Notes under the pieces: generated by a model | Told to the model about the DNA's origin: nothing | Databases searched by the model: none | What the model saw: the letters and a program-made list of their open reading frames with translations, nothing else | Position numbers and translations under genes: made by a program | NCBI GenBank assembly: GCA_023475265.1 | Contig: JAMCWE010000051.1 | Span: 1 to 64,000, forward strand | Source of the DNA: Bacteroidota bacterium | Lineage (GTDB): Bacteria; Bacteroidota; Ignavibacteria; Ignavibacteriales; Ignavibacteriaceae | DNA length: 64,000 nt | Reading direction: 5' to 3' | Shown: piece after piece, positions 4,152-28,457 of the stretch | How positions within the stretch are numbered: position 1 is the first letter of the stretch | Layout of the letters: every line of letters starts with the position of its first letter

Positions 4152-4231
4152 TTAAAAAGCCCAATGATCGGGCGACCACGGGCTTTAACTCTTTTTGTTC
4201 AAAAGGCAGGGGAGAACCTTTTGAAAGAGTC
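4152..4231 (-). ncRNA. Candidate small RNA with C-rich loop, copy 1
   Basis: On the minus strand this roughly 80-base stretch folds into a long hairpin. The lower stem ACUCUUU/AAAGAGU and upper stem CAAAAGG/CCUUUUG present the loop UUCUCCCCUG, and a strong terminator hairpin (GCCCG...UUGGGC) followed by U residues comes next. A paralogue lies at 28376-28457. The lower stem differs between the copies at two pairs, and both changes keep pairing (A-U to G-C and C-G to U-A). A promoter-like pair sits seven bases upstream. The exposed UCUCCCC is complementary to Shine-Dalgarno-type GGGGAGA, which suggests a trans-acting regulator. It also lies just beyond the end of the carbamate kinase operon and could serve as its terminator. 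I do not recognise a named family. Confidence 0.6.
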
Positions 4232-4237
4232 ATACCA

Positions 4238-4266
4238 AATTTATTCTTCAAATTATTTTTTTCCAA
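4238..4266 (-). promoter_or_regulatory. Promoter-like -35/-10 for small RNA copy 1
   Basis: On the minus strand TTGGAA (4266-4261) and TAAATT (4243-4238) are separated by exactly 17 bases. The predicted start falls at about 4231, the first base of the conserved RNA. The paralogous copy has the same geometry. Confidence 0.45.
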
Positions 4267-4345
4267 ACAAAAAATATTTTTTGCATTTTACTGTGACTTA
4301 ACTAACAAAAATAAGCGCAGTATTTGATCCACATTTTTTGTCAAG

Positions 4346-5443
4346 CTATTCGATTACAGTTCCTGCATTACCTTGTAGTGTTTCCTGGTACAAAGAGGAT
4401 TTTGTAATTAAAACTTTTTTACCGCCTCCTCTTAAAAAATTTATTGCAGCTTTTATTTTTGGCCCCATGCTGCCGGCAGGAAAATTATTTTTTTCATAAA
4501 GTTCTACAACTTGATTTAGTGTCAAATGTCTTAAATCTTTTTGATCCGGTTTTTGATAATTTAATTTAGCACCGTCTACATCTGTGAAGATTATTAATTC
4601 AACATCCAAATCCTCACCGTTATTTTTAGATTTATTCAGCAGCATAGTTCCCATTAAACTTGTAGCTAAATCTTTATCAACAACAGCTTCAATACCGGTA
4701 TAGATATTGAGTTTATTGCCCGGGACAAATTTCCGCGAATAGGTAATTCCATAATTACATTTATAAATTTCATTACCTTCTGAAATTTCATAATTAACTT
4801 TTTTTACCGGTATGCCGCCGCCGCCAACTGCAATTGGAATAATACCGGCTTTCATATTATTATAAATTACATCGATTTCTAAAATGTCAATCGGATTAGG
4901 AGACGGCACAACCCAGCGCCAAAGTTCTTCGCCCTGGTCATTCATTTTATAAAATTTCATTAAATGATCTTCTTCACTTTGTATCTTTAGCGCATCCTCT
5001 TTCAAATGTGCTGGACCAATAAATTTTGAAGGATTAGCAAAATCCGGATCGTTCTGATCAACAACTACTCTTGTTACAGTTTCCGCAACAACTCGATTTA
5101 TATTTAAGATGGCTAAATTATTTGTAAGCTGAGCCAGCATATAACCCATTGCGCCTTGAGTATCAGCATCACAAACATCTAATGGTAATAGATGGAGTAT
5201 TGGGCGTGAATATTCTGCGCGAAGAATAATATTCCCAACCTGCGGACCATTCCCATGAGTTAAAATAAAATAATCGTCTTGATCCTCTTTTATAATTTCC
5301 GCAAGCAGTTTACAAGTATCGGCGGTTCTTCGCCATTGTTCCGGTAGATCCGGTATAATTTGTTTTCCGGTTAACGGATCAACTTTTCCTGATGGAGAAA
5401 CTTCATTTCCACCGAGAGCGAATATTTTTAATTTTTTCGGCAT
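4346..5443 (-). CDS. arcC: Carbamate kinase (YqeA/ArcC type)
   Basis: Carbamate kinase makes ATP from carbamoyl phosphate and ADP, releasing ammonia and CO2; it is cytoplasmic. The protein has the amino-acid-kinase N-terminus FALGGNE, the THGNGPQVGN loop, a PIAVGGGGIP segment and a C-terminal FPAGSMGPKIKAA element. All are characteristic of ArcC/YqeA. At 365 residues it is longer than the usual 310 or so, with extra sequence around residues 150-185. It is the last gene of a minus-strand operon after the two xanthine dehydrogenase genes. In the E. coli yge cluster and in anaerobic purine-degrading clusters a carbamate kinase works with the YgeW carbamoyltransferase (here at 17265), which is why I assign it to purine energy conservation rather than arginine deimination. 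The start ATG at 5443 has no strong ribosome site. Confidence 0.93.
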   Translation of the reverse strand: MPKKLKIFALGGNEVSPSGKVDPLTGKQIIPDLPEQWRRTADTCKLLAEIIKEDQDDYFILTHGNGPQVGNIILRAEYSRPILHLLPLDVCDADTQGAMGYMLAQLTNNLAILNINRVVAETVTRVVVDQNDPDFANPSKFIGPAHLKEDALKIQSEEDHLMKFYKMNDQGEELWRWVVPSPNPIDILEIDVIYNNMKAGIIPIAVGGGGIPVKKVNYEISEGNEIYKCNYGITYSRKFVPGNKLNIYTGIEAVVDKDLATSLMGTMLLNKSKNNGEDLDVELIIFTDVDGAKLNYQKPDQKDLRHLTLNQVVELYEKNNFPAGSMGPKIKAAINFLRGGGKKVLITKSSLYQETLQGNAGTVIE

Positions 5444-5520
5444 AAAATTTAATTGATGTTTATGAGATAATTATTTGATGATTTTTTTTAAAAATTTTCT
5501 TTCCAATTCTTTAAATAAAA

Positions 5521-7806
5521 TTATGAAATGTTTGAAGATATTGGTTCGTTTAAATTAGAATAGAGTGAAAGTAAAACTTTTTCCGGAGTTAATGGAGCTG
5601 CTATTGGGAAAATATTATTCGGGCGAAATGCTTTCATCGCATTTATCAAGGCAAAGTAAACACCGATTCCATACATAAGAGGCGGCTCACCAATAGCTTT
5701 AGAATTAAATATTCCCATTGGATTGATAGAATTTTCTAAAAAATTAATTTCTATATTTTCCGGCGCAAAATGAACATCCGGAATTTTGTACGTTGAAAGT
5801 GAATCTGTTAACAATTTCCCTTGATCATTGTAAACTACGTCTTCAATTGTCATCCAGCCGAGTCCTTGAACTATTGCTCCTTCAGCTTGACCTTTATCTA
5901 TCACTTTGTCTAACGATTTTCCAAAATCATGTAAAACTTTTATAGAATCGATTTTGTAAATCCCTCTTAAGCAATCTAAAGTTACTTCTAAAACTGCCGT
6001 ACCGAATGAATAATATGCAAATGGATTTCCCTTAGAAGTTCCTTTATCAAAAGATATTCCCGGCGTAGCATATTGACTTTGTGAAGACAGATTTACTCTT
6101 TTCATAAAAGCAGATTTAATTACATCTTCCCATTTTAATTCTGTTGGTTTATCTATAATATAAACAAGCTCATCTTTTATATGAACGGAAATATTGTTTT
6201 CAATTTTTAATTCTTGTCTTATCGAACCTGTCAATCTGTCTCGAAGAGAATTGCAAGCTACTTCCAATGCTTTGCCGTTTAAATCAGCGCTGCTGCTTGC
6301 CGCTGTTGGAGAAGCATTAGCAATTCTTGTAGTATTTGATGATTCAATTTTCACTTTATTTATATTGATGGAGAAGATATTTGCTGCAATCTTTCTTAAT
6401 TTTTCATTTACCCCTTGGCCCATTTCTATTGCAGCGGTTGTAATTCCAACACTGCCATCTGAATAAATATGAACCAATGCGCTCGCTTGATTCATAAATG
6501 TATTTGTAAATGAAATTCCAAAACAAACCGGCATAACTGCAAAACCTTTTTTGGAAAGTATATTTGAATTATTAAATCTTTCTATTTTATTTTTAATCTC
6601 AGTTAATTGATATTTCTCATCGAGTTCAGTCCAGCATCTGCGTGCGTTTGAAGATTTAATTTTTTGTCCGTATGGAAATTCATCTCCTTCGTTTAATAAA
6701 TTTTTTCTCTGAATTATAAAAGGATCAATTCCCATTTTCTCGGCGGCTTTATAAATAGCTGCTTCCATTACAAACATTGCTTGTGGTCCGCCAAAGCCTC
6801 TAAAAGCAGTGTTAGGCGGAAGATTAGTTCTGCAGCAAAATCCGGTTGCTTTTACATTTGGAATAAAATAACTGTTTGTTGAATGGAAAAGAGTTCTATC
6901 TAGAATTGCCGGAGAAAGATCCGCAGAGGCTCCGGCATTCTGGTAAAATGTTACTTCGTAAGCCAGAATATTTCCTTCGTTCGTTAATCCAATTTTAAAA
7001 TCTGCCGAATAAGGATGACGCTTGCCGGTAACTTTAATATCTTCTTGGCGAGGTAGAACAAGCTTTACAGGTTTTTTCAATTTAAATGAAGCCAATGCTG
7101 CCATTGCTGCCCAAGCATTTGCTTGATCTTCCTTTCCTCCAAACCCTCCGCCTAATCTTGGAACATCAACTTCAATTTTGTTCATTGACAATCCGAGAAC
7201 TCTTGCAACAGTTCTTTGAACAACAGTGGGCCCCTGTGTTGAAGAATAAATCTTTACTCCGCCGCCTTCAGTAGGCATGGCGATAGCCCCTTGAGTTTCT
7301 AAATAAATATGTTCCTGTCCACTCGTTTCTGCTTTCCCGGATACAACTATGTCACAATTTTTCCATGCGCTTTCTACGTCACCTAAAGAAAACATTCGTG
7401 GGGGAATTATCAATTCTCCCTTAGCAAATGCTTCGCGAGGATCAATAATAAGTGGAAGATCTTCAATTTCAATTTTAATTTTTTCCCTTGCAAGTTTAGC
7501 AGTTGTTTGAGATTCTGCAACAATAATTGCAATAGGCTGACCGATAAAAGTAACCTCGTCTTTTGCTAACAATTCTTCATCAGGAATAATTCCTCCTATT
7601 TGATTTTCGCCAGGAATATCGTCTGATGTAAAAATTCCTTTTACTCCTGATAAACTTTTTATTTCTTCTAAATTTAACCTAAGAATTTTTCCGTGGGCTT
7701 TTGGTGAATAAAAAATCGATGCATAAAGTGTTCCTTCAGGTATAATCAAATCATCAACAAAATAAGATTCGCCGCGAACATGCTGGATCAAATCGTATCT
7801 GCTCAT
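5521..7806 (-). CDS. xdhB: Xanthine dehydrogenase, molybdopterin-binding subunit
   Basis: This 761-residue subunit carries the molybdenum site that hydroxylates purine rings such as hypoxanthine and xanthine. An N-terminal a/b-hammerhead domain (about residues 1-115) precedes the Moco-binding domain. The substrate-positioning arginine is in AFRGFGGPQ, and the catalytic glutamate is E707 in SKAIGEPPLMYG. Other Moco motifs are GGGFGGKE and EMGQGV. The size is typical of XdhB in bacteria with two-subunit enzymes (E. coli names the equivalent XdhA). GGAGGA lies just before the ATG, and the gene overlaps the stop of the upstream FeS/FAD gene by four bases, so translation is probably coupled. The FRGFGGPQ and GEPP motifs are those of true xanthine dehydrogenases, unlike the second Moco subunit at 23287. 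Confidence 0.93.
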   Translation of the reverse strand: MSRYDLIQHVRGESYFVDDLIIPEGTLYASIFYSPKAHGKILRLNLEEIKSLSGVKGIFTSDDIPGENQIGGIIPDEELLAKDEVTFIGQPIAIIVAESQTTAKLAREKIKIEIEDLPLIIDPREAFAKGELIIPPRMFSLGDVESAWKNCDIVVSGKAETSGQEHIYLETQGAIAMPTEGGGVKIYSSTQGPTVVQRTVARVLGLSMNKIEVDVPRLGGGFGGKEDQANAWAAMAALASFKLKKPVKLVLPRQEDIKVTGKRHPYSADFKIGLTNEGNILAYEVTFYQNAGASADLSPAILDRTLFHSTNSYFIPNVKATGFCCRTNLPPNTAFRGFGGPQAMFVMEAAIYKAAEKMGIDPFIIQRKNLLNEGDEFPYGQKIKSSNARRCWTELDEKYQLTEIKNKIERFNNSNILSKKGFAVMPVCFGISFTNTFMNQASALVHIYSDGSVGITTAAIEMGQGVNEKLRKIAANIFSININKVKIESSNTTRIANASPTAASSSADLNGKALEVACNSLRDRLTGSIRQELKIENNISVHIKDELVYIIDKPTELKWEDVIKSAFMKRVNLSSQSQYATPGISFDKGTSKGNPFAYYSFGTAVLEVTLDCLRGIYKIDSIKVLHDFGKSLDKVIDKGQAEGAIVQGLGWMTIEDVVYNDQGKLLTDSLSTYKIPDVHFAPENIEINFLENSINPMGIFNSKAIGEPPLMYGIGVYFALINAMKAFRPNNIFPIAAPLTPEKVLLSLYSNLNEPISSNIS

Positions 7807-9218
7807 ATAATTTCCTCCATAGCAATTTGTTCAGGAAAAAGCTTCAGGAAATGTGCAAATATTAATTGGCGAAGAAGCAATCTTTTATATTCTTCAGAAC
7901 CTCGAACATCGCTGATTGGAGAAATTTCCTTTTTTGTAAATTCAAACGCTTCATTAATTGTTTGAATCGTAATTTCTTTCCCAGTTAAGTAATTGGAAGT
8001 ACTTTCCAATAATAATGGATAAGGAGAAACGCCGCCTGCGGATATAGAAACGCTTTTTAAATGTTTATTTTCTTTTACCAAATATATTGCTGTGTTCACG
8101 CTTGCAATGTCAAGGTAAGTTCGTCTGGAAACTTTGTCAAAATTTATATAAGACTCTTTAGGAGGGATAGGGAATTTGACTAAATCCAAAATTTCATTCG
8201 GCATCTTATCAATTTGTTTGTATCCTTTATAAAATCGTTTCAAATTAACTTCTCTGGTTGAACTATCACTCTTAAATTGAAGTATCGATTTTAAAGCTAA
8301 GAAAAAAATTGTCATGTCACCGATTGGTGAAGCGTTGATAATATTGCCGCCAAGAGTAGCACGATTCCGTATTTGGTAAGAGCCGAATAATTCAAAATGA
8401 TTTTTTATTTCCGGGAAGTATTTTTGTAAAATTGAAGAATTCCGAATTTCATTAACCGTTGTATTTGCTTTTATATAAATGAAATTTCTATCCTCCCAAA
8501 TCTTTTGTGTTTTATTTGATGAAATTAATTCTATTCCTTTTTCTATAAGTTGATTTTCTTTTTGCAGAAATAAATCTGTACATCCGGCTGCAATAAAATT
8601 TTCTCCTGAAGAATAGATTCTAATTTCCTTATAATTTAATTCTTTAAGTCGTGCAGGAATTTCTAAAAAATATTCTGGAAGGAAATTATTTTCGACAAGA
8701 GTTTTTAAGGAATTATTTTCCAAATCTATTTTATTAAATAAATTCATTTCTAGAATTTCTATGGATCTTTTAATTGATGCGTAGCCGGTGCATCTGCAAA
8801 TATTCCCATCAATTGATTCCATCATTTCTTTATGATTAATATTTTTATTCATGAGGGAACCAGTAAGAGAAATAATGAATCCAGGGGTGCAAAAACCGCA
8901 TTGGCTCGCGCCTTCATCTACCATAACTTTTTGAATAGGAGTAAGTGTTGAGTTATTTAATCCTTCGATTGTAACAAGATGTTTCCCATTTAAAGCAGCA
9001 ACTGGTAGTAGACAGGAATTAATTGTTTTGTATTTAATTACATCTCCATTTAATTCGCCTAACAAAACTGTACAAGTGCCGCAATCTCCTTCACGGCAGC
9101 CTTCTTTTGTGCCGGATAAATGAAGTTGTTTACGGATTAAATCCAGTGCAGATGCTGCTGGATTCATTACGACTGAAATTAAATTTTGATTACATATAAA
9201 ATTTATATTTATTTCCAC
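7803..9218 (-). CDS. xdhA: Xanthine dehydrogenase, 2Fe-2S and FAD subunit
   Basis: The 471-residue protein passes electrons from the Mo site to NAD or another acceptor. Residues 1-160 form the two [2Fe-2S] domains: a plant-ferredoxin-type cluster with C41, C46, C49 and a fourth cysteine near 70, then a helical domain with CGFCTPG and CRCTGY. Residues of about 190-370 are the FAD-binding domain (GNIINASPIGD), followed by the CO-dehydrogenase flavoprotein C-terminal fold. This fused layout is the normal XdhA architecture. The start is GTG at 9218 with GGGGA upstream; no ATG fits. It is the first gene of the xdhA-xdhB-carbamate kinase operon and diverges from the ECF-like fusion gene at 9441. 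Confidence 0.92.
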   Translation of the reverse strand: MEININFICNQNLISVVMNPAASALDLIRKQLHLSGTKEGCREGDCGTCTVLLGELNGDVIKYKTINSCLLPVAALNGKHLVTIEGLNNSTLTPIQKVMVDEGASQCGFCTPGFIISLTGSLMNKNINHKEMMESIDGNICRCTGYASIKRSIEILEMNLFNKIDLENNSLKTLVENNFLPEYFLEIPARLKELNYKEIRIYSSGENFIAAGCTDLFLQKENQLIEKGIELISSNKTQKIWEDRNFIYIKANTTVNEIRNSSILQKYFPEIKNHFELFGSYQIRNRATLGGNIINASPIGDMTIFFLALKSILQFKSDSSTREVNLKRFYKGYKQIDKMPNEILDLVKFPIPPKESYINFDKVSRRTYLDIASVNTAIYLVKENKHLKSVSISAGGVSPYPLLLESTSNYLTGKEITIQTINEAFEFTKKEISPISDVRGSEEYKRLLLRQLIFAHFLKLFPEQIAMEEII

Positions 9219-9440
9219 TTTGTCCCCGTTAATAGCTGTGGAAAAATAAGTTTAAGTTGTTGAAGTTTCAAGTGGTATTATTGTAGGTTAATAAAAAAAG
9301 TTTATTTATTTGAATGATTATTTTACAAAAGATAAAATTCTTTACGCTAAATTATCATTTGTCTAAATGACTAAGAAAAAAATAATTTTTATATTAAACA
9401 GAAACAATTGTTAAAGATTAGGTTAAACAGGGAATAAATT

Positions 9441-11189
9441 TTGGATAATAGAAATAAGATAAATCATGTCTGGTTAAAATCAACAGTAGTTGGAAGTTTG
9501 TGGGCTTCCAGCGAAATTATTTTAGGAAGTTTCCTTCATAATGTTCAAGCGCCTTTTTCAGGAACAATTCTTTCTTCAATTGGAGTTATTCTATTAGTTG
9601 CCAGCGATAGATTTTGGCAAACTAAAGGAATTATTTGGAGAGCCGGAATAATTTGTGCAATTATGAAAACTATTTCTCCTAGTGCTGATATTTTTGGACC
9701 GATGATAAGCATTGCTGCGGAAGCATTTCTTCTTGAAGCAATAGTAAGAATATTTGGTTCAAATTATTTTGGATATTTGATAGGAGGCGGTTTAGCAGTT
9801 TCATGGAGTTTATTTTATAAAATATTTGGTTCAATAATTGTTTACGGGTTTAATATTGTAGAATTGTACTCCAAGTTATACCAGTTCGCAGCTAAACAAA
9901 TAAATTTTAAGTTAACTAATCCCTGGACTTTAGTCCTTGTTCTTTTTTTTATTTACCTAATATTGGGTGCGATTGCCGGAGTATTTGGAAAATTTGTCGG
10001 CGATAAAGCAAAATCAGATATTGAAAAAAAATTTTCTTCATCAATTAATATTCATCCTATCATTGAATTTACTTCAGCAAAAAATTATCAAAAATTTTCA
10101 TTTTCATGGTTGGTGTTACATATTTTAGCAATCATATCCGGATTGATTGCATTAAATATTTTACCGCTTTGGGTTTCAACGATTTTAATCCTTTGTTATG
10201 TCGGTGTTTGTTTGATGCAATATCAACATAATTTAAAGAGATTAAAGAAACCGAAATTCTGGATTTTACTTATTTCAATAACATTGTTAGCTGGATTATT
10301 ATTAAGCAGTTTAAGAAGTAATGTTCATGGAGTAAATTGGTCAGGTCTTTCGGTTGGGATAGCAATAAATGTTAGAGCGTTTCTCATGATATTCGGATTT
10401 TCAAGCTTGAGTATAGAACTTAGAAATCCGAAAATCGAACATTGGTTTAAGCAGAAGGGAATGAGGCAATTTTCACAGTCACTCGAAGTTGCATTTAAGA
10501 TTTTGCCTTTTATGGCAGCAAATGTTTCTGAAGAAAAAATGATTTTCAAAAAACCATTGATCGCTTCTTCAAACCTTATTCTAAAAGCAAATTATTGGTT
10601 GGAAAGAATTGAAGAGAATTCGTACGGACTGCCAATTGTTTTTATTGTTACTGGTGAAAGAGGATCGGGCAAAACCACATTACTTTCTCAAACTTTACTA
10701 AAGCTTAAATCAGAAAAAATAAACACCTCCGGAATTTTAGCTCCTGGATTTTGGACAGACAATCGCAGAAGCGCTTTTGATATAGTTGACATTCAATCAG
10801 AAGATAGAACTAAACTTTGTACTATTGAACCAAGCCAAAGTAGAGTTAGAATTGGGCAATTTAATTTTCTATCCGAAGGAATTTCTCTTGGCAATAAAGC
10901 TCTTTCAACTGATAAAGTTTCTGAATCTGATGTATGTATAATTGATGAAATTGGTTTTTTAGAACTTAAAGGTGAAGGCTGGTCAAATAGACTAAATGAG
11001 TTGATAAAAAATTATAAAAAAATTTTGGTGTTGGTAGTTAGAAATGAACTTGTTGATGATGTTTGTAAAAAGTGGTCGATTTATTCGCCGATTATTTTTG
11101 ATTGCAGAGAAAAAGATTCGGATAATTTATCAAGCGCAATTTATCATCATCTTATCTTACTTTCTGATAAAAGTTCAATTAACATTTAG
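9441..11189 (+). CDS. ECF-like membrane protein fused to a THEP1-type NTPase
   Basis: This 582-residue protein has three parts. Residues 10-200 are about six hydrophobic helices resembling an ECF-transporter S component (substrate binder). Residues of about 215-370 resemble an ECF T component: helix pair, then GLSVGIAINVRAFLMIFG, a middle helix, and the amphipathic HWFKQKGMRQFSQSLEVAF segment before a final ILPFM. Residues of about 395-582 are a THEP1/DUF2478-type nucleoside triphosphatase with Walker A GERGSGKTT (about 400) and Walker B VCIIDEIGFLEL. A normal ECF system uses ABC ATPases; none is next door. The S/T assignment is my inference from the helix pattern; the NTPase call is firm. 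The start is TTG at 9441 with AGGGA upstream, since no ATG fits. The gene diverges from xdhA, which suggests uptake of a purine, molybdate or cofactor, though the substrate is unknown. Confidence 0.7.
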   Translation: MDNRNKINHVWLKSTVVGSLWASSEIILGSFLHNVQAPFSGTILSSIGVILLVASDRFWQTKGIIWRAGIICAIMKTISPSADIFGPMISIAAEAFLLEAIVRIFGSNYFGYLIGGGLAVSWSLFYKIFGSIIVYGFNIVELYSKLYQFAAKQINFKLTNPWTLVLVLFFIYLILGAIAGVFGKFVGDKAKSDIEKKFSSSINIHPIIEFTSAKNYQKFSFSWLVLHILAIISGLIALNILPLWVSTILILCYVGVCLMQYQHNLKRLKKPKFWILLISITLLAGLLLSSLRSNVHGVNWSGLSVGIAINVRAFLMIFGFSSLSIELRNPKIEHWFKQKGMRQFSQSLEVAFKILPFMAANVSEEKMIFKKPLIASSNLILKANYWLERIEENSYGLPIVFIVTGERGSGKTTLLSQTLLKLKSEKINTSGILAPGFWTDNRRSAFDIVDIQSEDRTKLCTIEPSQSRVRIGQFNFLSEGISLGNKALSTDKVSESDVCIIDEIGFLELKGEGWSNRLNELIKNYKKILVLVVRNELVDDVCKKWSIYSPIIFDCREKDSDNLSSAIYHHLILLSDKSSINI

Positions 11190-11247
11190 ATTTAAAACGA
11201 TATTTTAGCTCCGGAAAATAAACTTCTATATACTTATAATTTTATTC

Positions 11248-19547: not shown

Positions 19548-20234
19548 ATGATCAAGAATAACAAGCTTGAAGGTATAATATTAGCGGCGGGATTATCCAC
19601 AAGATTAAGTTACTGGAAGCCGGAAGTAAAAATTAACAAGCTTCCAATTATTGTTCATACAATTAATTCATTAATACCTTATTGTAAAAGAATAATTATT
19701 GTCGGTGGTTTTAATTGCAAGAGCTTAAAAAAAATAATATTAGATGGAACTTATTTCTCATCAGAAGAAAAAGAAAAAATTAATATTGTTGAAAATGAAA
19801 AATATATGAACGGAATGCTTTCATCAGTCAAAACCGGATTAAATATTATTGATCAACAAACTGAAGGAATATTTATTTTGCCTGGTGATATGCCGTTTGT
19901 ATTAAGTGAAACTTTCAATAAACTGATTTCAAGATTTGATGAAAATATTAATTCTGATATTTTTATTCCAGTAACTAAAATTAACTTACCTTCAAATTTT
20001 AATGATGAAATAAACAAGAAAGGACATCCGGTTTTAGTTAGAAAAAGAATTGTAAGCCAGATATTAGCTGATGAAAATGAGGTCATCTTTAGAGATATTT
20101 TAAAGAAATTCGGACATGAATTATGTCCGGTAGAAGATAAAGGAATAATTATCGATATTAATGATGTTAAAGATTTAGAGAAAGCAAAAATCTATTACGA
20201 AGAATTTTTAATCCAGCAAAGAGGAAATAAATGA
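19548..20234 (+). CDS. mocA: MocA/YgfJ-type molybdenum cofactor nucleotidyltransferase
   Basis: The protein belongs to the MobA-like NTP transferases; MocA adds CMP to molybdopterin to make the cytidine-dinucleotide cofactor used by many molybdenum hydroxylases. The N-terminal nucleotide loop reads ILAAGLSTRLSYWK, a variant of LAAGxSxRMGxxK in which the usual MG is LS. The metal-binding GD lies in LPGDMPFV, and a GHPVLV motif near residue 160 is typical of MocA. At 228 residues it is normal in size. ATG at 19548 is preferred over the adjoining TTG at 19545. It overlaps the next gene by four bases (ATGA). Its likely clients are the two hydroxylase sets of the island. Confidence 0.85.
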   Translation: MIKNNKLEGIILAAGLSTRLSYWKPEVKINKLPIIVHTINSLIPYCKRIIIVGGFNCKSLKKIILDGTYFSSEEKEKINIVENEKYMNGMLSSVKTGLNIIDQQTEGIFILPGDMPFVLSETFNKLISRFDENINSDIFIPVTKINLPSNFNDEINKKGHPVLVRKRIVSQILADENEVIFRDILKKFGHELCPVEDKGIIIDINDVKDLEKAKIYYEEFLIQQRGNK

Positions 20235-21694
20235 TCAATTTGAATTTGAACGCGGAAGCAAGAAAAAATAATATCCAAAGGTGTCGGGATAAAAATATAA
20301 TTTATCCAACCTATGAACAGATGAAGAATCCAAATAAAATTCCGAAATATATTTCCAGCAGATTAAAGAACATCGGATTATGGGATGTAAATCCGTTAAA
20401 TCTTTTTCGAATTACTTGGAAGAATGAACCAAAAGGGTTTGGCGGTGGATTCAATGGAATTAATTATATAGAATTTCCATCAGAGTTGACCGGAGTGAAA
20501 GCTAAAATTATTGCATTGGTTGGAAAATGGTTCCCTACCGGCGCTCACAAAGTTGGCGCAACGTATGGATGCTTGTCTCCGGCATTGGTTACCGGAAACT
20601 TTGATTCAACATGGCAGAAAGCTGTATGGCCTTCCACAGGAAATTATTGCCGTGGCGGCGCATTTAATTCAGCATTGCTTGGCTGCGAATCTATCGCAAT
20701 CTTGCCTGAAGAAATGAGCAAAGAAAGATTTGAATGGCTTCGCGGACTTGCCGGTGAGGTGATTGCAACTCCCGGATGCGAAAGCAATGTTAAAGAAATA
20801 TTTGACAAATGCTGGGAACTAAAGCGCGAAAGAAATGACGTGAAAATTTTTAATCAGTTTGAAGAGTTTGGAAATTATCTTTGGCATTATGAAGTAACCG
20901 GAAATGCTTTGCTGGAAGTCTTTGAAAAATCTTTAAGCAAAAAAGGAAATGTTGCCGGATATATTTCGGCTACTGGTTCCGGCGGAACGATTGCTGCCGG
21001 AGATTTTCTAAAACAAAAATTTCCGCAGATGAAAATTGTCGCTTCCGAAGCACTCCAATGCCCAACTCTTTTATTGAATGGATACGGCGGGCACCGGATT
21101 GAAGGTATCGGCGACAAGCATGTTCCATGGATTCACAATGTAAGAAACACAGATATGGTAATCGCAATTGATGATCAAGACTGCATCGAGCTTATCAGAT
21201 TGTTCAACGAAGAAAGCGGAAAAGATTATTTATCAGCATCAGGCATTGATTCCGAACTTGTTTCTAAACTAAATTATATCGGAATATCGGGCGCTTCCAA
21301 TTTGCTTTCTGCAATTAAGTTTGCAAAATATTATGAGTTGAAAGAAGATGATGTAGTTTTCACTATCTTAACTGACTCGATGGATCTATATGGTTCGCGC
21401 TTACAAGAGTTGAATGACAAGCACGGAAAATATCAGCGGGATGATGCAATAAAAGCATTCAACAGAAATTTACTTGGCGCTAATATTTCTTCAATGCTTG
21501 AATTGAACTATTACGACAAAAAAAGAATTCATAATCTGAAATATTTTACATGGATTGAGCAGCAGCAAAAAAGTTTGGATGAATTGAATGCTCAGTGGTA
21601 CGACTATCCAAACTATTGGCTGCAAATCCAAAATAAAGCTGTAGAAATCGATAAACTAATTAATGAATTCAACACGGAAGCCGGACTTTTATGA
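20231..21694 (+). CDS. PLP-dependent lyase-like protein, 487 residues
   Basis: This is a large fold-type II PLP enzyme. K107 in FPTGAHKVGATYG is the likely Schiff-base lysine, and glycine-rich phosphate contacts occur in SATGSGGTIAAGDFL. It differs from both threonine synthase and YgeX and carries about 100 extra C-terminal residues rich in aromatic side chains. I know the family mainly from its position: it is found next to ygeW and ygeY in purine/selenium-linked clusters and its substrate is not certain to me. Elimination of ammonia from a diamino acid intermediate would fit. Start ATG at 20231 overlaps mocA, and its own stop overlaps xdhC by four bases, so translation is coupled across three genes. 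Confidence 0.7.
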   Translation: MINLNLNAEARKNNIQRCRDKNIIYPTYEQMKNPNKIPKYISSRLKNIGLWDVNPLNLFRITWKNEPKGFGGGFNGINYIEFPSELTGVKAKIIALVGKWFPTGAHKVGATYGCLSPALVTGNFDSTWQKAVWPSTGNYCRGGAFNSALLGCESIAILPEEMSKERFEWLRGLAGEVIATPGCESNVKEIFDKCWELKRERNDVKIFNQFEEFGNYLWHYEVTGNALLEVFEKSLSKKGNVAGYISATGSGGTIAAGDFLKQKFPQMKIVASEALQCPTLLLNGYGGHRIEGIGDKHVPWIHNVRNTDMVIAIDDQDCIELIRLFNEESGKDYLSASGIDSELVSKLNYIGISGASNLLSAIKFAKYYELKEDDVVFTILTDSMDLYGSRLQELNDKHGKYQRDDAIKAFNRNLLGANISSMLELNYYDKKRIHNLKYFTWIEQQQKSLDELNAQWYDYPNYWLQIQNKAVEIDKLINEFNTEAGLL

Positions 21695-22566
21695 TCGAAG
21701 TATTTGAAGCTTTGGCAAATAGAATTAAATTAAATGAAGCTTCTGTTTTGGTGACGATTATTGAGATGAAAGGAAGCACTCCGGGAAAAGTTGGTTTTAA
21801 AATGCTTGTCGGAAGTGATGGAAGGATTGCAGGTACAGTCGGCGGCGGGGGAGTTGAGTTTTATGCAATAAATAAATGTAAAGAGCTGTTTCAATCAGAT
21901 CAATTCAGTTTAAAAGAAACTTTGGTGATGAAGGATTCCTTGCTTGGTGAAAAGTCCGGCAATCTTGAAGTGAAAAAAAATGATGACGTTGCGATAAACG
22001 CATTGTGCGGAGGTGAAGTGACTTTGTTTTTCGAAGTTTACAAACCTGCAAAAATGATTTATGTTTTTGGTGCGGGGCACGTTGGACAAGCGATTATCAG
22101 GCTTGCAAAACAGATGAATTATTTCATTTCGGTTTTTGATAACCGCCAAAATGTATTGGATGAAATTCCGGAAGATATTTGTAATGAAAAAAAATGTTTG
22201 GATCTTCCAAATCTTCATACAAAAGAAAAAAGTTATATCACGTTGGACCCTGGCGGTTATGTAATAATTGTAACTCACAATCATTCAAATGATCTTCAAG
22301 TGTTTGAATATCTTTATAGAAATTATCCTGATCAAAAATATATCGGAATGATCGGCTCAAAAAGAAAAGTGCACGAAGGAATTTCATTCATAAAGAAAAA
22401 ATTAAATGGCGAAATAAATTTGAGCAATCTTTATTCGCCGGTAGGAATTGATTTAGGCGGTGATTCGCCGAATGAAATTGCCGTCAGCGTTCTTGCAGAA
22501 ATTCAAGCGGTAACTTATGGAAAGACGGTAAATCATTTACGATTAAATTATGACGACATAAAATGA
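21691..22566 (+). CDS. xdhC: XdhC-family molybdenum hydroxylase accessory factor
   Basis: XdhC proteins bind molybdenum cofactor and help insert the sulfurated cofactor into xanthine-dehydrogenase-type apoenzymes. The N-terminal XdhC/CoxI domain (residues 1-110) has GSTPGKVG and GTVGGGGVE. A Rossmann domain follows with YVFGAGHVGQA and TLDPGGYVIIVTH. The conserved cysteine is in ALCGGEVTLFFE. At 291 residues it has normal length. The start overlaps the PLP enzyme by ATGA, and the MoaD-like carrier follows after ten bases, placing all cofactor-maturation functions in one stretch of the operon. Confidence 0.9.
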   Translation: MIEVFEALANRIKLNEASVLVTIIEMKGSTPGKVGFKMLVGSDGRIAGTVGGGGVEFYAINKCKELFQSDQFSLKETLVMKDSLLGEKSGNLEVKKNDDVAINALCGGEVTLFFEVYKPAKMIYVFGAGHVGQAIIRLAKQMNYFISVFDNRQNVLDEIPEDICNEKKCLDLPNLHTKEKSYITLDPGGYVIIVTHNHSNDLQVFEYLYRNYPDQKYIGMIGSKRKVHEGISFIKKKLNGEINLSNLYSPVGIDLGGDSPNEIAVSVLAEIQAVTYGKTVNHLRLNYDDIK

Positions 22567-22576
22567 GCCGCGAAAT

Positions 22577-22810
22577 ATGAAAATTAAATTTGAATACATC
22601 GGCTTGCTTCATATTGATGGAATAAAAAATCACAGTGAAATTGAATTGGAAAATGATTCGACAATTAACGATTTATTCAATAAGCTGAAAATCCGGAACG
22701 AACATAGACAATTCATTTCCGCATTTGTAAACGGTGAAGAGAAAAAACGATTTTCAGTTTTAAAGAATGATGACAAGGTAAAATTATTTCTTCCAACCGG
22801 CGGGGGATAA
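22577..22810 (+). CDS. MoaD/ThiS-like sulfur carrier protein
   Basis: A 77-residue beta-grasp protein ends in PTGGG, the exposed diglycine tail that is adenylated and thiocarboxylated in MoaD and ThiS. It lies directly after xdhC and before a truncated ThiF-type activating enzyme. In selenium-linked molybdenum hydroxylase clusters a ThiS/ThiF pair is a regular companion, presumably delivering sulfur for the cofactor or a modified ligand. Because the local ThiF is broken, the carrier must use another activating enzyme (MoeB or a second ThiF) elsewhere or be idle. No strong ribosome site is visible before the ATG. Confidence 0.85.
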   Translation: MKIKFEYIGLLHIDGIKNHSEIELENDSTINDLFNKLKIRNEHRQFISAFVNGEEKKRFSVLKNDDKVKLFLPTGGG

Positions 22811-22816
22811 GCTTGA

Positions 22817-23281
22817 GCAAGAAAATCCCATCTGATTTCAAATCTAAATGGGCAGCAGTATTTTATTGATGACTTGGGAAAATATAAAGTTGATGCGCTG
22901 TTAAAAGTTATGAAATCAATAAATCTACTGGTAAAAATTGAAACTCATAAAACAAAATTGAATTCAAAAAATTTGGGAATAATATTTCATGATTGTCAAA
23001 TTGTGGTGGAAGCTTTTGATTCAATTGAAGTAAAAGCTATGATCGTAAAAACCTTTACAAAAGATTTTCCGGGAAAATATTTAGTATGTGCTTCCGGTTT
23101 AGCGGGATTTGGAAAGTCGAATAAAATTAAAACTAGAAAACTTACAAAGAATATTTTTATTTGCGGGGATAACCAAACGGAACCTATTGAAACAACCGGT
23201 TTAATGGCTCCAAGAGTAATGATCGCTGCTGCTCATCAGGCAAATAAAGTGCTGGAGTTAATTTCGAAAATTTCTTACTAA
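22817..23281 (+). pseudogene. thiF: ThiF-type activating enzyme, N-terminal half deleted
   Basis: The frame resumes after a TGA at 22814 with residues reading NLNGQQYFIDDLGKYKVDAL. It continues to a normal C-terminus with CQIVVEAFDS, ASGLAGFGKSNKIKTR and GLMAPRVMIAAAHQANKVL. These match the second half of ThiF-family sulfur-carrier adenylyltransferases (about 200 residues). The missing first 60-90 residues should hold the GxGGxGS nucleotide loop and the arginine finger, but only six bases separate the carrier gene's stop from the remnant. There is no room for them in another frame, so this is a deletion rather than a frameshift. The nearest in-frame start is TTG at 22874, with no ribosome site. 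The remnant cannot bind ATP in the normal way. Confidence 0.8.
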
Positions 23282-23286
23282 AAATA

Positions 23287-25626
23287 CTAACCTGCTAAAA
23301 TCTTCAAAACATATTCCGGTGAAAATGGTGCCTTAAAAAGTCTTTTGCCTGTTGCATTGAAAAATGCATTTGCAATCGCCGGCAAAGCGCCATTTATATT
23401 AATTTCTGAAATTGATTTAGCGCCAAACGGGCCGGTCTCTTCATACGAATCAATTAGAAAAATTTTTATCGGAGGAATATCTGCGGCTGTGTACATTCCG
23501 TATTTTCCGAAAGTATCATTTAATAATTTCCCATGCTGAGAAAAATAATAATTTTCAAACAGCGCATAAGAAATTCCATTTACTATTGCGCCTTCGGCTT
23601 GCCCCTCCGCTAATGTAGTGTTAATTGGAGTGCCGCAGTCAACTGTTGCAACATATTTGAGAACTTTTATAATTCCAGTAAATGTATCGACTTCAATTTC
23701 CACAAAGTGCGCGGCAAACGGAGGCGGCGATTTGGGTGAAACATGAGAAACGCCGGCTTGAATTTGAAATTGATTGTTCTGATAAAAAGAATATCTGCAA
23801 ATGTCTTCGTAAGAAACCTCGCCTTTATTTTGATTTTCATTAGAAGACTTAATTACCACATTTGAATCATAGATTTCGACTTCATCAATATTTACTCCAA
23901 GAATCTCAGCGCCAACTTGCAATATTTGTTCTTTAATTTTGGTTGCACACTTCAACACCGCTTGACCTGAAAGATATGTTGTTGAAGAAGCATAAGCGCC
24001 GGTATCAAACGGAGTAAAATCTGTGTCGGAAGAAGTGACGATAAAATTTTCAACCGGAGTATCCAATACTTCAGAAGCAATCTGCGCAAGAATTGTATCT
24101 GAACCGGTTCCTAAATCGGTAGCACCAATGTTCAAATTAAATGAACCGTCGTCATTCATTTTAATATAAGCGGAAGCCATATCAATTTCCGGAATGGCTG
24201 AGCCTTGCATTAACGCCGCCATACCGATTCCTCTTTTAAATCGCTTTCCTTTATTGAAAGTAGAATTTGCACCATATAATTTTTCCTTTTCATACCACCC
24301 GGATTCTTTTGCGCCAACCTCCAAACATTCATTTAGCGAAGTTGAAGTAACCGTCATCGCAACGCCTTCTTTGCCTTCTCCCAAAGCTTTGAAGATTGGA
24401 GAAGTTTCACCGGATTTGATCGACCATTTTTTATAATACTCAATAATATCATTGTTGGTGGCTTCGCAAACCATGTCAACGATTTGCCCGTACCCAAAAT
24501 ATGCTTCAGTAGCGCCGTAACCGCGGTAGGCGCCGCCGCAAGGAAGATTCGTATAAACTCCTTTGCCGGTAAATTTTAAATTTTCAATCTTGTTTAGCAG
24601 CGGAAGAGTTTTTGATCCTGCGTTTGAAAGGACAGTTAATGCATGCGAGCCGTATGCGCCGGAATTTTCAAGCGCATCCAAGTGTATCGCATTAATTTTT
24701 CCGTCTTTCTGAAAACCAACTTTGAAAATTGTTCTATACCCGTGTCGTGTTCGTGATGATTTAAAAACTTCTTTACGGCTATAAACTAACTTTGCCGGAC
24801 GTTTTGTCTTCCACGTAATTAAAGCAACAATTGGTTCAAGAAGAACTTCTTGCTTTCCTCCGAATCCGCCGCCAATTCTCGGTTTAATAACGCGGATTTT
24901 TGAAATTGGGATTTCAGCAATATGCGAAACGATTCGTCTCACATGAAATGGAACTTGAGTTGTAGAAATAATTACCAATCTTCCTCTTGTGTCTATATAA
25001 GATACCGCTGCGTGCGGTTCTATTGCGCAGTGTGAAGCATATTGAGTGAAGAATGTATGTTCAATTTTATTTTCTGAGCTTAGGAAGGCTTCTTCAAAAT
25101 TTCCTACATTAGCTTCAACTTTTGCCGCAAGATTTTGTGAAGCATCATAATAAACCGGGATTTTGGGAAAAGCTCCGTCGTCTTTATGAACTAAGATTTT
25201 AGAATTTTCGGATTTTTCAAAATCTAAAAGAGGTTTTAATCTTTTATAACTCACTTTGATTTTTTTTAATGCGGCATCAGCAATTTCTTTAGTTTCTGCG
25301 GCAACCGCACAGACATTGTCGCCGACAAATCTCATAACATTTCCGAATAAAACTGTATCGTAAGGTGACGGTTCAGGATAACCTTGTCCGGCAGTTGTAT
25401 ATAAAATTTGTTTTATATTTTTATAGGAAAGTACTTCAACAACGCCAGGCATTTTTAACGCGGCGGATTCATCAATGTTTTCAATCTTTGCATAAGCAAA
25501 ACCGGAATGAAGAACAGAAACATGAAGCATGTTATCAAATGAAAAATCATCAGTATATTTTTCGTTCCCGGTGACTAAAGCAAGTCCGTCAATTTTTTCA
25601 ATTGGTTTTTTAATATACTTAAACAT
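23287..25626 (-). CDS. Second molybdenum hydroxylase, Moco-binding subunit (XdhD-like)
   Basis: The 779-residue subunit has the xanthine-dehydrogenase Moco fold, with GGGFGGKQE and the active-site glutamate E741 in GAKSISEININGALP. In place of the classical FRGFGGPQ it has YRGYGATEAYFG, like XdhD and selenium-linked purine hydroxylases rather than canonical xanthine dehydrogenase. The substrate is probably a purine at another ring position or oxidation state. It is the last gene of a minus-strand operon (deaminase, FAD, FeS, Moco) and converges with the thiF remnant five bases away. Start ATG at 25626 is preceded by GGAGTAAGC and lies two bases after the FeS gene. Confidence 0.88.
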   Translation of the reverse strand: MFKYIKKPIEKIDGLALVTGNEKYTDDFSFDNMLHVSVLHSGFAYAKIENIDESAALKMPGVVEVLSYKNIKQILYTTAGQGYPEPSPYDTVLFGNVMRFVGDNVCAVAAETKEIADAALKKIKVSYKRLKPLLDFEKSENSKILVHKDDGAFPKIPVYYDASQNLAAKVEANVGNFEEAFLSSENKIEHTFFTQYASHCAIEPHAAVSYIDTRGRLVIISTTQVPFHVRRIVSHIAEIPISKIRVIKPRIGGGFGGKQEVLLEPIVALITWKTKRPAKLVYSRKEVFKSSRTRHGYRTIFKVGFQKDGKINAIHLDALENSGAYGSHALTVLSNAGSKTLPLLNKIENLKFTGKGVYTNLPCGGAYRGYGATEAYFGYGQIVDMVCEATNNDIIEYYKKWSIKSGETSPIFKALGEGKEGVAMTVTSTSLNECLEVGAKESGWYEKEKLYGANSTFNKGKRFKRGIGMAALMQGSAIPEIDMASAYIKMNDDGSFNLNIGATDLGTGSDTILAQIASEVLDTPVENFIVTSSDTDFTPFDTGAYASSTTYLSGQAVLKCATKIKEQILQVGAEILGVNIDEVEIYDSNVVIKSSNENQNKGEVSYEDICRYSFYQNNQFQIQAGVSHVSPKSPPPFAAHFVEIEVDTFTGIIKVLKYVATVDCGTPINTTLAEGQAEGAIVNGISYALFENYYFSQHGKLLNDTFGKYGMYTAADIPPIKIFLIDSYEETGPFGAKSISEININGALPAIANAFFNATGKRLFKAPFSPEYVLKILAG

Positions 25627-25628
25627 GC

Positions 25629-26108
25629 TTACTCCGCTTCAACTTTATTTTCTTGAAGAATGATTGCTGATCTTTTAACTGCTTCAATAATTTTTACATA
25701 TCCGGTGCATCTGCATAAGTTGCCGTCTAATGCTTCTACTATTTCTTCATTTGATGGAGATGAATTTTCTTTTAACAAACTATAAGCCGCAACAACCATT
25801 CCCGGCGAACAGAAACCGCATTGGTCGGCGCCGGTGCTTGCAAATATTTTTTGAATCAAATTCGGGTTATGCAATGTGCCGATACCTTTTACGGTTTTAA
25901 TTTTTTTGTTTTGCACGCTCATTGCTAAAACCTGGCAGGAATTGACTGGTTTGTCTTTTAGAAGAACAAGACAAGCACCGCATTCACCTTCATTGCAGCC
26001 GCATTTTACTTCGGTGAAACCATTATTCCTCAAAGCATTTAATAATGTTTCGTTGGGATTTAATTCCAGTTCACTTACTGAATTATTAATGTTGAAGCTG
26101 GCTTTCAT
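25629..26108 (-). CDS. Molybdenum hydroxylase 2Fe-2S subunit
   Basis: A 159-residue electron-transfer subunit with both [2Fe-2S] domains: GCNEGECGACLVLL with a fourth cysteine in VNSCQV, then CGFCSPGMVVAAYSLL and GNLCRCTGYVKI. This is the standard small subunit of three-part hydroxylases such as CoxS or XdhC of clostridia. It overlaps the FAD gene upstream by four bases (ATGA) and is followed two bases later by the Moco subunit. Together they form one enzyme distinct from the two-gene enzyme at 5521-9218. Confidence 0.9.
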   Translation of the reverse strand: MKASFNINNSVSELELNPNETLLNALRNNGFTEVKCGCNEGECGACLVLLKDKPVNSCQVLAMSVQNKKIKTVKGIGTLHNPNLIQKIFASTGADQCGFCSPGMVVAAYSLLKENSSPSNEEIVEALDGNLCRCTGYVKIIEAVKRSAIILQENKVEAE

Positions 26109-26929
26109 AAGTTCTCTCTAATTATTTCCGAAAGAAGTTCGTTGAAGTAAACTTTTGCAACTGTTTCTTTGTATGATGCTGAATATTTGTAGTCTGAGAC
26201 AAATTTTGGCTCAATAAATTTTTCAATTTCATCTGAAAGATTGTTGGATAGTTTTTGACCGGTTAAGAATTTCTCGGCTTTCTTAAATCTTTTAAATCTA
26301 TTTTTCACTCCGGTAATCACTAGTTTCGCATCTTCAATTATTTTCCCGTTCATCTTAAATGCAATTGCAATGTTGAATAATGGATATTCAAATTTTAACA
26401 ATGCAAATCTTTTAACTTTCCAAATAATATTTTCATTTTCCGGAACGATGATTTCCTTAATGATGTGTTTTGATTTAATAATTCCATCGGAAACATATTC
26501 TTCAACAGAATAGATGCCGGATTTATCTCCTCTAATTTCAATTTTAGCATCAATGGTAATTAAAGGTGCATATAAATTACTCCAAAGTGGAAAATCTTTT
26601 AGTGAACCGCCGACTGTTATTCTATTTCTAAGCGGAGTTGAGGCAGCTTGAGAAAGAGCTGCGCCAAGCATCTTTAAACAATTATTTTCTTTGGAGAATT
26701 TTATAACATCATTAAAAGTTGTCGCCGAACCAATGTGGAATGAATTATTTTTAAATTTTATATAATTCAATTTCAAATTGCCGACATCAACTAAACCCAC
26801 AATATTTTTCGATTGAGTTTTGAGAATCCTTGTTCCGCCAGCATGTAAAATTACTCCCGGCTTCTGAATTAATTCCACAGCTTGCGAAACGCTGGAAGGA
26901 AAATACCATTTAAGATTTTCTGAAAGCAT
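26105..26929 (-). CDS. Molybdenum hydroxylase FAD-binding subunit
   Basis: The 274-residue protein has the FAD-binding and C-terminal domains of the CoxM type: an N-terminal YFPSSVSQAVELI strand-helix, the HAGGTRIL pyrophosphate loop, and RNRITVGGSLKDF in place of the usual TIGGNL. It carries electrons from the 2Fe-2S subunit to the final acceptor. It starts nine bases after the deaminase and overlaps the FeS gene. The ATG has no good ribosome site, so coupled translation is likely. E. coli has a similar free-standing FAD subunit, YgfM, next to xdhD. Confidence 0.85.
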   Translation of the reverse strand: MLSENLKWYFPSSVSQAVELIQKPGVILHAGGTRILKTQSKNIVGLVDVGNLKLNYIKFKNNSFHIGSATTFNDVIKFSKENNCLKMLGAALSQAASTPLRNRITVGGSLKDFPLWSNLYAPLITIDAKIEIRGDKSGIYSVEEYVSDGIIKSKHIIKEIIVPENENIIWKVKRFALLKFEYPLFNIAIAFKMNGKIIEDAKLVITGVKNRFKRFKKAEKFLTGQKLSNNLSDEIEKFIEPKFVSDYKYSASYKETVAKVYFNELLSEIIRENL

Positions 26930-26938
26930 ATATTTTTA

Positions 26939-28300
26939 TTATGTTAAAAGTTTTTTTGCTATTTCATTTCCTTTTTTAATAATCAAATTTTCATCCTCAC
27001 CGATCAACTTTCCCCTTTCAACAACAACTTTCCCATTCACAATAGTATATTCAGTTTGATGACTAATGCCGGAAAATAATAATGCGGCAAGCGGGTCGGA
27101 AAGACTGCCGGTATATTCAAGTTTATTTAAATTAAATACTGCAAGATCGGCAAGCCAGCCTTCTTTTATTTTACCAAGTTTTTTGTAATTCAATATCTTC
27201 GCACCGTTTTCTATTCCCATTTGAAAAGCTTCATTTACATTTAATCCATCTGAGCCATATTTTACTCTTTGAAGCAGTAAGGCATTTCTCAATTCACCAA
27301 GCATATCCGAAGTATCATTCGATGCAGAGCCGTCAACACCAATACCAACGTTGATTCCTAAATCAATCATTTCGCGGACTCTTGCTATTCCGGAACCTAA
27401 TCTCATATTTGATGAAGGGCAGTGAGCAACGGATGTATTGGTTTCTTTTAATACTTTAAGTTCATCGTCATTGAAAAAAATTCCATGAGCAAAAAAAACA
27501 TCTTCGCCTAAAAAATCAATTTCTTCCATAAGCGATAAAGGATTCTTTCCAAATTTTTCGTTGCAGAATTCTTCTTCATCTTTTGTTTCAGCAAGATGTG
27601 TATGAAGCCGAACATTATAAGTTCTAGCAAGTTTGGCTGTCTGTTTCATGTTTCCTTTTGTGACAGAAAATGGTGAACATGGTGCAAGAACAATTTTTTG
27701 CATCGAATCTTCGGATGGATCGTGATATTTTTCTATAATTCGTAAACTATCTTTTAATATTGTTTCTTCGTCTTGAACAACAGAATCCGGTGGAAGTCCG
27801 CCATTTTTTTTACTTAGCGACATTGATCCCCTTGATGGAGAAAAGCGAATTCCCAATTTTTTTGCAGCGTCAAATTGAATTCCCATCAAATCGCCGCCGA
27901 AATTTTCCGGATATAAATAATGATGATCAGTAGAAAGAGTGCAGCCTGTTTTCAATAATTCACCCATCGCAATAAGAGAAGAATAATAAACCGCTTCTTC
28001 ATCTATATTCTTCCAAATTTCATAAAGATAAACTAGCCAATCAAATAATTTTGCATTTTGAACAGCTTTTAAATTACGAGTCAATGTTTGATAGAAATGA
28101 TGGTGAGTGTTGATTAGTCCAGGAATAACTATACAATTTGAACAGTCTAAAATTCTTAAACTTTTATCCTGTCGATAATTGGCTATCAAATTTTTTCCGA
28201 TGTGAGAGACTTTATTGTTATCAATTAAGATATCTGATTCGGAATAACATTTTTCGTTATCGAAGGAAGCAATAAAAAAACAATTTTGAAGCAGGATCAT
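26939..28300 (-). CDS. 8-oxoguanine deaminase-like amidohydrolase
   Basis: This TRZ/ATZ-family metal hydrolase has H66-H68 in INTHHHFYQTLTRN. It also has the loop SRGSMSLSKKNGGLPPDS that marks 8-oxoguanine deaminases. Later metal ligands lie in LHTHLAET, FAHGIFF and GVDGSASND. It would convert 8-oxoguanine (or a related aminopurine) to the dioxo form, feeding the hydroxylases of the cluster. At 453 residues it is normal in size. ATG at 28300 has TGGGG six bases upstream; TTG at 28303 is less likely. It is the first gene of its operon. The small RNA or attenuator at 28376-28457 lies 76 bases upstream and reads toward it. Confidence 0.88.
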   Translation of the reverse strand: MILLQNCFFIASFDNEKCYSESDILIDNNKVSHIGKNLIANYRQDKSLRILDCSNCIVIPGLINTHHHFYQTLTRNLKAVQNAKLFDWLVYLYEIWKNIDEEAVYYSSLIAMGELLKTGCTLSTDHHYLYPENFGGDLMGIQFDAAKKLGIRFSPSRGSMSLSKKNGGLPPDSVVQDEETILKDSLRIIEKYHDPSEDSMQKIVLAPCSPFSVTKGNMKQTAKLARTYNVRLHTHLAETKDEEEFCNEKFGKNPLSLMEEIDFLGEDVFFAHGIFFNDDELKVLKETNTSVAHCPSSNMRLGSGIARVREMIDLGINVGIGVDGSASNDTSDMLGELRNALLLQRVKYGSDGLNVNEAFQMGIENGAKILNYKKLGKIKEGWLADLAVFNLNKLEYTGSLSDPLAALLFSGISHQTEYTIVNGKVVVERGKLIGEDENLIIKKGNEIAKKLLT

Positions 28301-28375
28301 CAAAACCCCATTTGTTAAAAAATTCGACCTTAAAATAAAAATTATTTTTAAGTTTTACCACAAAAATATTTAAAA

Positions 28376-28457
28376 ATAAAAAAGCCCAATGATCGGGCGA
28401 CCATCGGGACTTAGTTCTTTTGATTCAAAAGGCAGGGGAGAACCTTTTGAAAGAACC
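28376..28457 (-). ncRNA. Candidate small RNA with C-rich loop, copy 2
   Basis: This is the paralogue of the RNA at 4152-4231. On the minus strand the lower stem is GUUCUUU/AAAGAAC, the upper stem CAAAAGG/CCUUUUG is identical, and the loop UUCUCCCCUG is identical. The terminator stem CCCGAUGGUC/GAUCAUUGGG (10 bp, loop GCCC) ends in six U residues. A promoter-like pair sits at the same distance as in copy 1. Since it points toward the 8-oxoguanine deaminase operon 76 bases away, a leader/attenuator role is possible here. Copy 1 has no such gene close downstream, which favours an independent trans-acting RNA. Confidence 0.6.

Follow-up and report, generated by a model that had tools for sequence, protein, structure and literature searches.

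Several described RNAs come close to the one studied here. In ar14 / NfeR1 of the Alphaproteobacteria, an ultraconserved C-rich anti-Shine-Dalgarno motif stands unpaired on highly variable stems, as CCUCCUCCC in each of three hairpins, and the RNA is Hfq-independent (PMC10746234). The 6C / B11 RNA of mycobacteria has two C-rich loops, either of which suffices to repress a reporter with a G-tract in its 5' untranslated region (PMC10470900). Yfr1, a lineage-wide small RNA of the Cyanobacteria, combines a pyrimidine-rich motif that is unpaired and ultraconserved with a terminator hairpin at its 3' end, and its genomic location is mostly conserved (PMC2190773). The Chlorobi-1 RNA (RF01696) is a candidate structured RNA from a neighbouring lineage (PMC2864571). 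Here we analyse two related elements on the minus strand of a 64,000-nucleotide stretch of DNA (the window; contig JAMCWE010000051.1) from a bacterium of the family Ignavibacteriaceae, order Ignavibacteriales, class Ignavibacteria. We find that they very probably represent a real and widespread small RNA (sRNA) family, undescribed as far as our searches reach.

Structure and promoters of the two elements

The two copies were placed by sequence check, covariance-model match and folding.

4152..4231, minus strand: predicted sRNA copy 1, putative RNA 5' end at 4231
4207-4216, minus strand: loop word TTCTCCCCTG of copy 1
about 4156-4186, minus strand: terminator hairpin of copy 1
4238..4266, minus strand: promoter-like boxes of copy 1 (-35 TTGGAA at 4261-4266, 17-base spacer, -10 TAAATT at 4238-4243)
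28376..28457, minus strand: predicted sRNA copy 2, putative RNA 5' end at 28457
28433-28442, minus strand: loop word TTCTCCCCTG of copy 2
about 28382-28412, minus strand: terminator hairpin of copy 2
28464..28492, minus strand: promoter-like boxes of copy 2 (-35 TTGCAT at 28487-28492, 17-base spacer, -10 TATTTT at 28464-28469)

Each copy consists of a hairpin with the loop UUCUCCCCUG and a terminator hairpin, behind its own promoter-like boxes. An earlier reading of the window, made from the letters alone (the original prediction), had drawn most of this picture. When the sequence was read back, both elements were found where it had put them, on the minus strand, with upper stem and loop exactly alike and with the terminator hairpins that it had called strong. 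The lower stems, GACTC..GAGTT and GGTTC..GAACT, differ as it had claimed by two compensatory changes, A-U to G-C and C-G to U-A. The promoter-like boxes and their 17-base spacer are also present, but the gap between the -10 box and the RNA measures six bases and not seven. The copies fold at -32.9 kcal/mol (z -5.9) and -32.6 kcal/mol (z -5.4), and for neither did any of 200 shuffles fold as well as the real RNA.

The promoter signal recurs among relatives of the window copies. TAnnTT occupies -12..-7 in 64 of 73 copies, and TTG or TGG falls in the -35 window in 63. Sequence signals were found for both an own promoter and an own terminator, as expected of a trans-acting base-pairing sRNA: the two boxes stand together at the fixed position in 62 of the 73 copies, against 1 of 438 at six slid offsets, and a terminator hairpin comes with a T-run. 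Since both boxes keep a fixed position, the first base of the lower stem is the apparent start of the RNA. Some copies, such as L077 and L091, have the promoter about 13 bases further upstream.

Conservation and distribution of the family

We built a covariance model, R1, from 26 sequences of an alignment (A2) and searched related genomes with it. The window's own genome holds four copies at E 1.2e-16 or better, two in the window and the others at C167:27620 and C61:2038; the match ranking fifth reached only E 0.44. The exact word TTCTCCCCTG occurs six times in that genome, twice in non-members (L002 and L006). At E <= 0.01, R1 matched 102 of 164 genomes of the order, among them 73 of the 80 in the taxonomic family to which the window belongs; one genome (G007) has as many as nine copies. 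A wider model, R2, matched 152 of 391 genomes of the class at E <= 0.001. As the original prediction had expected of an sRNA family, the search returned many copies with a conserved loop and covarying stems.

Beyond the class, the phylum scan matched 48 of 395 genomes, of which five lie outside the class, at E values from 1.6e-4 to 8.3e-4. Four of these five, all but that in G664, were read. Three (L211-L213) are terminator-like only and were rejected. The remaining one, L210:2434-2513, has two hairpins with ACCC in the second loop and a first loop that is not C-rich; it may be a chance match or a remote relative and was not accepted as a firm member. Because of these features, we recognise no firm member among the four out-of-class matches read. 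A scan of named genomes for the exact core gave 72 stretches, 70 of which match R1 (L109 partly, being cut by the end of its stretch). These 70 come from records titled Ignavibacteria and relatives, from metagenome-assembled genomes (MAGs) titled Bacteroidetes bacterium, or from bacterium BMS3Abin03. Core matches in Marinococcus (L126) and in a Clostridia MAG (L127) gave no R1 match and were discarded; the viral contigs searched contained no exact core.

Covariation was assessed in alignment A5, of 99 rows (96 distinct), which was fitted to the model and consists mostly of rows found by the exact core, both of which favour structure and loop. In A5, 96.7% of the cells pair, changes occur on both sides in 21 of 23 pairs, and the covariation score is 0.468, against 0.201 in shuffles and at most 0.121 with the partner slid. 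Loop-1 UCCCC is invariant in the 96 distinct rows while the stems vary, and the terminator loop has three columns in which C reaches 100%, 100% and 94%. Among 25 distant copies found by model score (alignment A4), UCCCC is kept in 25 and CUCCCC in 23, on rewritten stems. R1 matches are weak in another family of the order (f2), whose loci are not part of A5. In the five f2 loci read (L203, L204, L206, L209 and L214), the C-run is gone from the first loop; the terminator loop still has one (CUCCCCCC or alike), and the DUF3098 neighbourhood described below is retained.

Three loci (L146, L147 and L148) carry tandem arrays of two to three copies; the gene downstream of the L147 and L148 arrays resembles that of a GTP-dependent phosphoenolpyruvate carboxykinase.

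Comparison with known RNA families

No Rfam family reached its cut-off on the window, and none except tRNAs did so on 10 class loci. Under permissive settings, ar14 (RF02344) was the best profile on 10 class loci so searched, matching six of them at no more than 35.0 bits against a cut-off of 58.8, and anti-hemB reached 26.5 bits (cut-off 49.5). On four loci of the own genome, ar14 gave no match at E <= 10. RsaE / RoxS of the Firmicutes (RF01820) matched two own copies weakly over the full length, at 24.3 and 23 bits; these scores lie far under the 79-bit cut-off and, with E values of 1.8 and 3.5, are compatible with chance. The 6C family had no Rfam match on the loci searched, nor did Chlorobi-1 in the Rfam searches of the window, the own loci and the class loci.

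The new family is like ar14 / NfeR1 in having hairpins with a conserved, unpaired C-rich motif on variable stems. However, ar14 is defined by three hairpins with CCUCCUCCC in about 123 nt, whereas we find two hairpins in about 80 nt, with UCUCCCC in loop 1 and a C-run in the terminator loop, and the two families live in distant lineages. With 6C / B11 it has two C-rich loops in common (the first being lost in the five f2 loci), in another lineage and with loops compared by description, not by alignment. The Yfr1 motif, ACUCCUCACAC, lies between hairpins, whereas that of the new family lies in a loop. By the tests made, the family is a member of neither ar14 nor B11, and it may work like them. 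A literature search combining Ignavibacteria with RNA terms, with most subscription papers outside its scope, found no description of it; one of the papers listed, PMC5317091, mentions Ignavibacteria. Distribution, covariation and the Rfam comparison together strongly support what the original prediction had put forward, namely an sRNA family without an established name whose loop is conserved and whose stems covary.

Association with DUF3098

In 71 of 127 copies, a DUF3098 gene in the same orientation lies no more than 600 bases further downstream; L210-L213 and one antisense match in L209 were dropped before this count, and two of the copies had fewer than 150 bases of downstream sequence. 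The association occurs in two different neighbourhoods. Within the order, an 82-aa gene that Pfam does not match comes first, followed by the sRNA, DUF3098, in many cases EutN, and then DprA; the 82-aa gene is upstream of 55 of the 127 copies. The DUF3098 protein tested scored 24.9 in Pfam, where the cut-off is 25; a literature search for DUF3098 listed a single paper. Outside the order, in six families of the class, DUF3098 follows 15 of 16 copies (the exception being L191) in another setting: a permease and an ABC ATPase, which we take to be LolC and LolD, lie upstream in L185, L188 and L198, and tRNA-Lys is found within 0.9 kb downstream in nine of the 16.

In the order, DUF3098 starts about 20-45 bases past the terminator stem, and the gene is therefore probably read through from the sRNA promoter. 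The other 56 of the 127 copies, both window copies included, have no DUF3098 nearby. Among the more divergent copies, five (L200, L202, L205, L207 and L208) have no DUF3098. Two of these, L207:3032-3123 and L208:2992-3081, start at the first base after tRNA-Met, so that tRNA processing could release the sRNA.

The urate-degradation cluster and its ribosome-binding sites

The window copies bracket a cluster of genes, and the sequence GGGG precedes four genes that head units of it.

4346..28303, unstranded feature: urate/purine-degradation cluster between the two sRNA copies (Pfam and NCBIfam), comprising carbamate kinase-like, xanthine dehydrogenase (xdh, two sets), SsnA, YgfK, YgeY, carbamoyltransferase, pyridoxal-phosphate (PLP) enzymes, MobA-like, XdhC and 8-oxoguanine deaminase
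9224..9227, minus strand: GGGG before the xdh small-subunit gene, candidate pairing site (start GTG inferred)
15748..15751, minus strand: GGGG before ygfK, candidate pairing site
16020..16023, plus strand: GGGG before ygeY, candidate pairing site, the weakest case
28306..28309, minus strand: GGGG before 8-oxoguanine deaminase, candidate pairing site

NCBIfam cut-offs were exceeded by YgfK, SsnA, YgeY and 8-oxoguanine deaminase; Pfam or mostly sub-cut-off NCBIfam matches support the carbamoyltransferase, two PLP enzymes, XdhC, the MobA-like protein, xanthine dehydrogenase and carbamate kinase. The cluster resembles the reductive urate-degradation set of E. coli (PMC12507026), except that hyuA was not identified in the window cluster. 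Other cluster-bearing genomes of the genus (G001, G004, G005 and G008) have sRNA copies at corresponding places, the G008 copy, on C32, sitting at a contig end and being matched by its downstream neighbours only. The purine genes suggested a riboswitch for purine or for the molybdenum cofactor. We rejected it because copies occur in many unrelated settings, many of them beside unrelated or convergent genes, and because no Rfam riboswitch matched. The urate cluster, like the DUF3098 link and the C-run of the terminator loop, had been overlooked in the original prediction.

In the window, GGGG starts 7 to 9 bases upstream of the four unit-heading genes (xdh small subunit, ygfK, ygeY and 8-oxoguanine deaminase). 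Among the 39 listed open reading frames, it precedes the first ATG of no others; one xdh frame has it before an internal ATG. GGGG precedes 8-oxoguanine deaminase in 5/5 genomes of the genus and 0/4 elsewhere, and ygfK in 3/3 and 0/8, one of the eight having an unclear start. With all four genes combined, it is found at 12 of 16 sites in the genus and at 0 of 47 in other genera (Fisher p 7e-10, a value that ignores relatedness, with several genes taken from the same genomes and some starts inferred). GGGG at the urate sites is confined to this genus. Over 382 sampled starts (584 kb), only 11 have GGGG at -16..-5, and seven of the 11 are genes of the urate cluster. DUF3098 starts have GGGG in 0 of 26 cases and an ordinary site in 22.

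By hybridisation energy, 29 cluster genes pair better with the loop than 173 others (p 2e-4; p 0.005 for the window alone and 0.04 for the other loci alone), twelve named records in this set being counted to the genus by inference from shared match positions. The strongest predicted pairing among the 202 gene starts, -17.3 kcal/mol, is that of L075:5020-5499, where GCAGGGG, complementary to the loop's CCCCUGC, stands before a gene like that of the xanthine dehydrogenase Fe-S subunit. Fourth of the 202 is the tricorn-like protease gene that lies downstream of copy 1, at 369-3650 of the window, with GGAGAG ahead of its start.

The original prediction had proposed antisense control through ribosome sites such as GGGGAGA, an idea for which our results give partial support. 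That long site does not hold as a rule: GGGGA precedes none of 288 sampled starts. The shorter GGGG at urate-cluster sites fits better. In eight genomes, GGGGAG-N-ATG outnumbers its reversed control by 581 to 293, an excess that ordinary Shine-Dalgarno use may explain; GGAG precedes 9.4% of the 288 starts, as against 2.4% further upstream.

Proposed mechanism and alternative explanations

We propose that the two elements are paralogous sRNAs of about 80 nt, independently transcribed, whose undescribed family belongs to the class in which the Ignavibacteriales are placed. Each RNA would start at its own promoter, end at its own terminator and present UCCCC in its first loop and a C-run in its terminator loop. 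These C-runs would pair in trans with G-runs at ribosome-binding sites and so hinder translation, without Hfq. The most widespread copy, ahead of DUF3098, would probably double as a read-through leader. In the genus, extra copies bracket the urate cluster, and the genes heading its units are the best candidate targets because of the GGGG at their ribosome sites. Trans-pairing by the C-rich loops appears probable on this evidence. We also lean, somewhat less firmly, towards the proposal as a whole, in which Hfq-free, trans-acting sRNAs with C-rich loops act on GGGG ribosome sites and the urate cluster is a candidate target. Whether the window copies target that cluster is an even call.

The independence from Hfq draws on a search of 21 genomes. 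Pairing by 6C / B11 is reportedly independent of chaperones, according to the title of a study cited in the paper on it. In the 21 genomes, no Hfq exceeded the cut-off and one match was weak and interrupted, in a search whose control found Hfq in 5 of 14 known genomes. Because Hfq was not found there, and as stated for NfeR1, pairing, if any, is probably Hfq-free.

Several observations weigh against the proposal. GGGG precedes xdh in only 3/5 genomes of the genus (0/11 elsewhere) and ygeY in 1/3, that of the window's genome, the other two having GGG; outside the genus the ygeY count is 0/24, with at least one start unclear and two partial matches (L311 and L312) left out. As the genus is one clade, its 12 GGGG sites out of 16 are not independent. 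Permuted loops gave a pairing difference as large as the observed one in 29 of 200 trials, and the cluster genes also come out ahead, by a smaller margin, when an assumed 16S 3' end is used (p 0.007); the hybridisation statistic thus shows G-rich ribosome sites and not the exact loop order, and we dropped loop-order specificity for the cluster genes. Counts of AGGGGAG-N(3-14)-ATG over eight genomes show no enrichment (133, compared with 156 for the reversed pattern), which led us to reject broad anti-Shine-Dalgarno targeting through a long site. Genes beside other sRNA copies mostly have no GGGG: it stands beside the 8-oxoguanine deaminase copies and elsewhere only sporadically, so that targeting of the adjacent gene was rejected as a general rule. 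Finally, 33 of 50 amidohydrolase-type rows, which are not at issue, aside, most sRNA-bearing genomes have no urate cluster: 8-oxoguanine deaminase was found in 7 of 61 genomes searched and ygeY in 29 of 76. The cluster is for this reason not a general target, and only the lineage-specific copies could act on it.

The strong DUF3098 association raises the question of whether the element is a cis-acting leader of that gene, an attenuator or a ligand- or protein-binding element, with the scattered copies secondary. The 71 same-strand pairs in two different neighbourhoods speak for this, as does a gene start too near the terminator stem for a separate promoter. We nevertheless consider it unlikely, since 56 of the 127 copies, the window pair among them, stand apart from DUF3098 and such copies still have the promoter, the terminator and the loop. 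In an inspection that included no systematic test of alternatives, we noticed no conserved base-pairing by which the terminator would be opened. More doubtful still is a role in binding or titrating a protein by way of the C-rich loops, in which case the G-rich urate sites would simply be strong ribosome sites. An invariant loop on variable stems would suit a protein too, and the better pairing of the 16S 3' end with the cluster genes agrees with strong ribosome sites; but the replacement of the usual GGAG-like site by GGGG is peculiar to the urate cluster of this genus, and the DUF3098 starts keep ordinary sites. Multiple copies per genome, with tandem copies at three loci, could also indicate a simple repeat or mobile element devoid of RNA function. 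This is scarcely credible: covariation in practice refutes it, position is conserved across the class, the promoter is fixed, and the viral contigs searched are free of the exact core.

We retain trans-acting sRNAs as our explanation. The window pair, bracketing the urate cluster with its matching GGGG ribosome sites, suggests which genes may be controlled. We tentatively extend this to a history, in our estimate somewhat short of an even chance, in which a core sRNA of the class was born as the terminated leader of a DUF3098 gene, which would encode a membrane protein, and was duplicated in one genus into a pair that silences the urate operons, whose head genes evolved a GGGG matching the loop. 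If true, these genomes would show how an sRNA and the operons it targets became wired together.

More generally, the family would be a widespread sRNA family with strong covariation and a fixed genomic anchor in a lineage in which Hfq was not detected, a class of mostly uncultured bacteria. It would provide a testable target set in urate degradation, and it would parallel, independently, the sRNAs with anti-Shine-Dalgarno motifs in Alphaproteobacteria and those with C-rich loops in mycobacteria.

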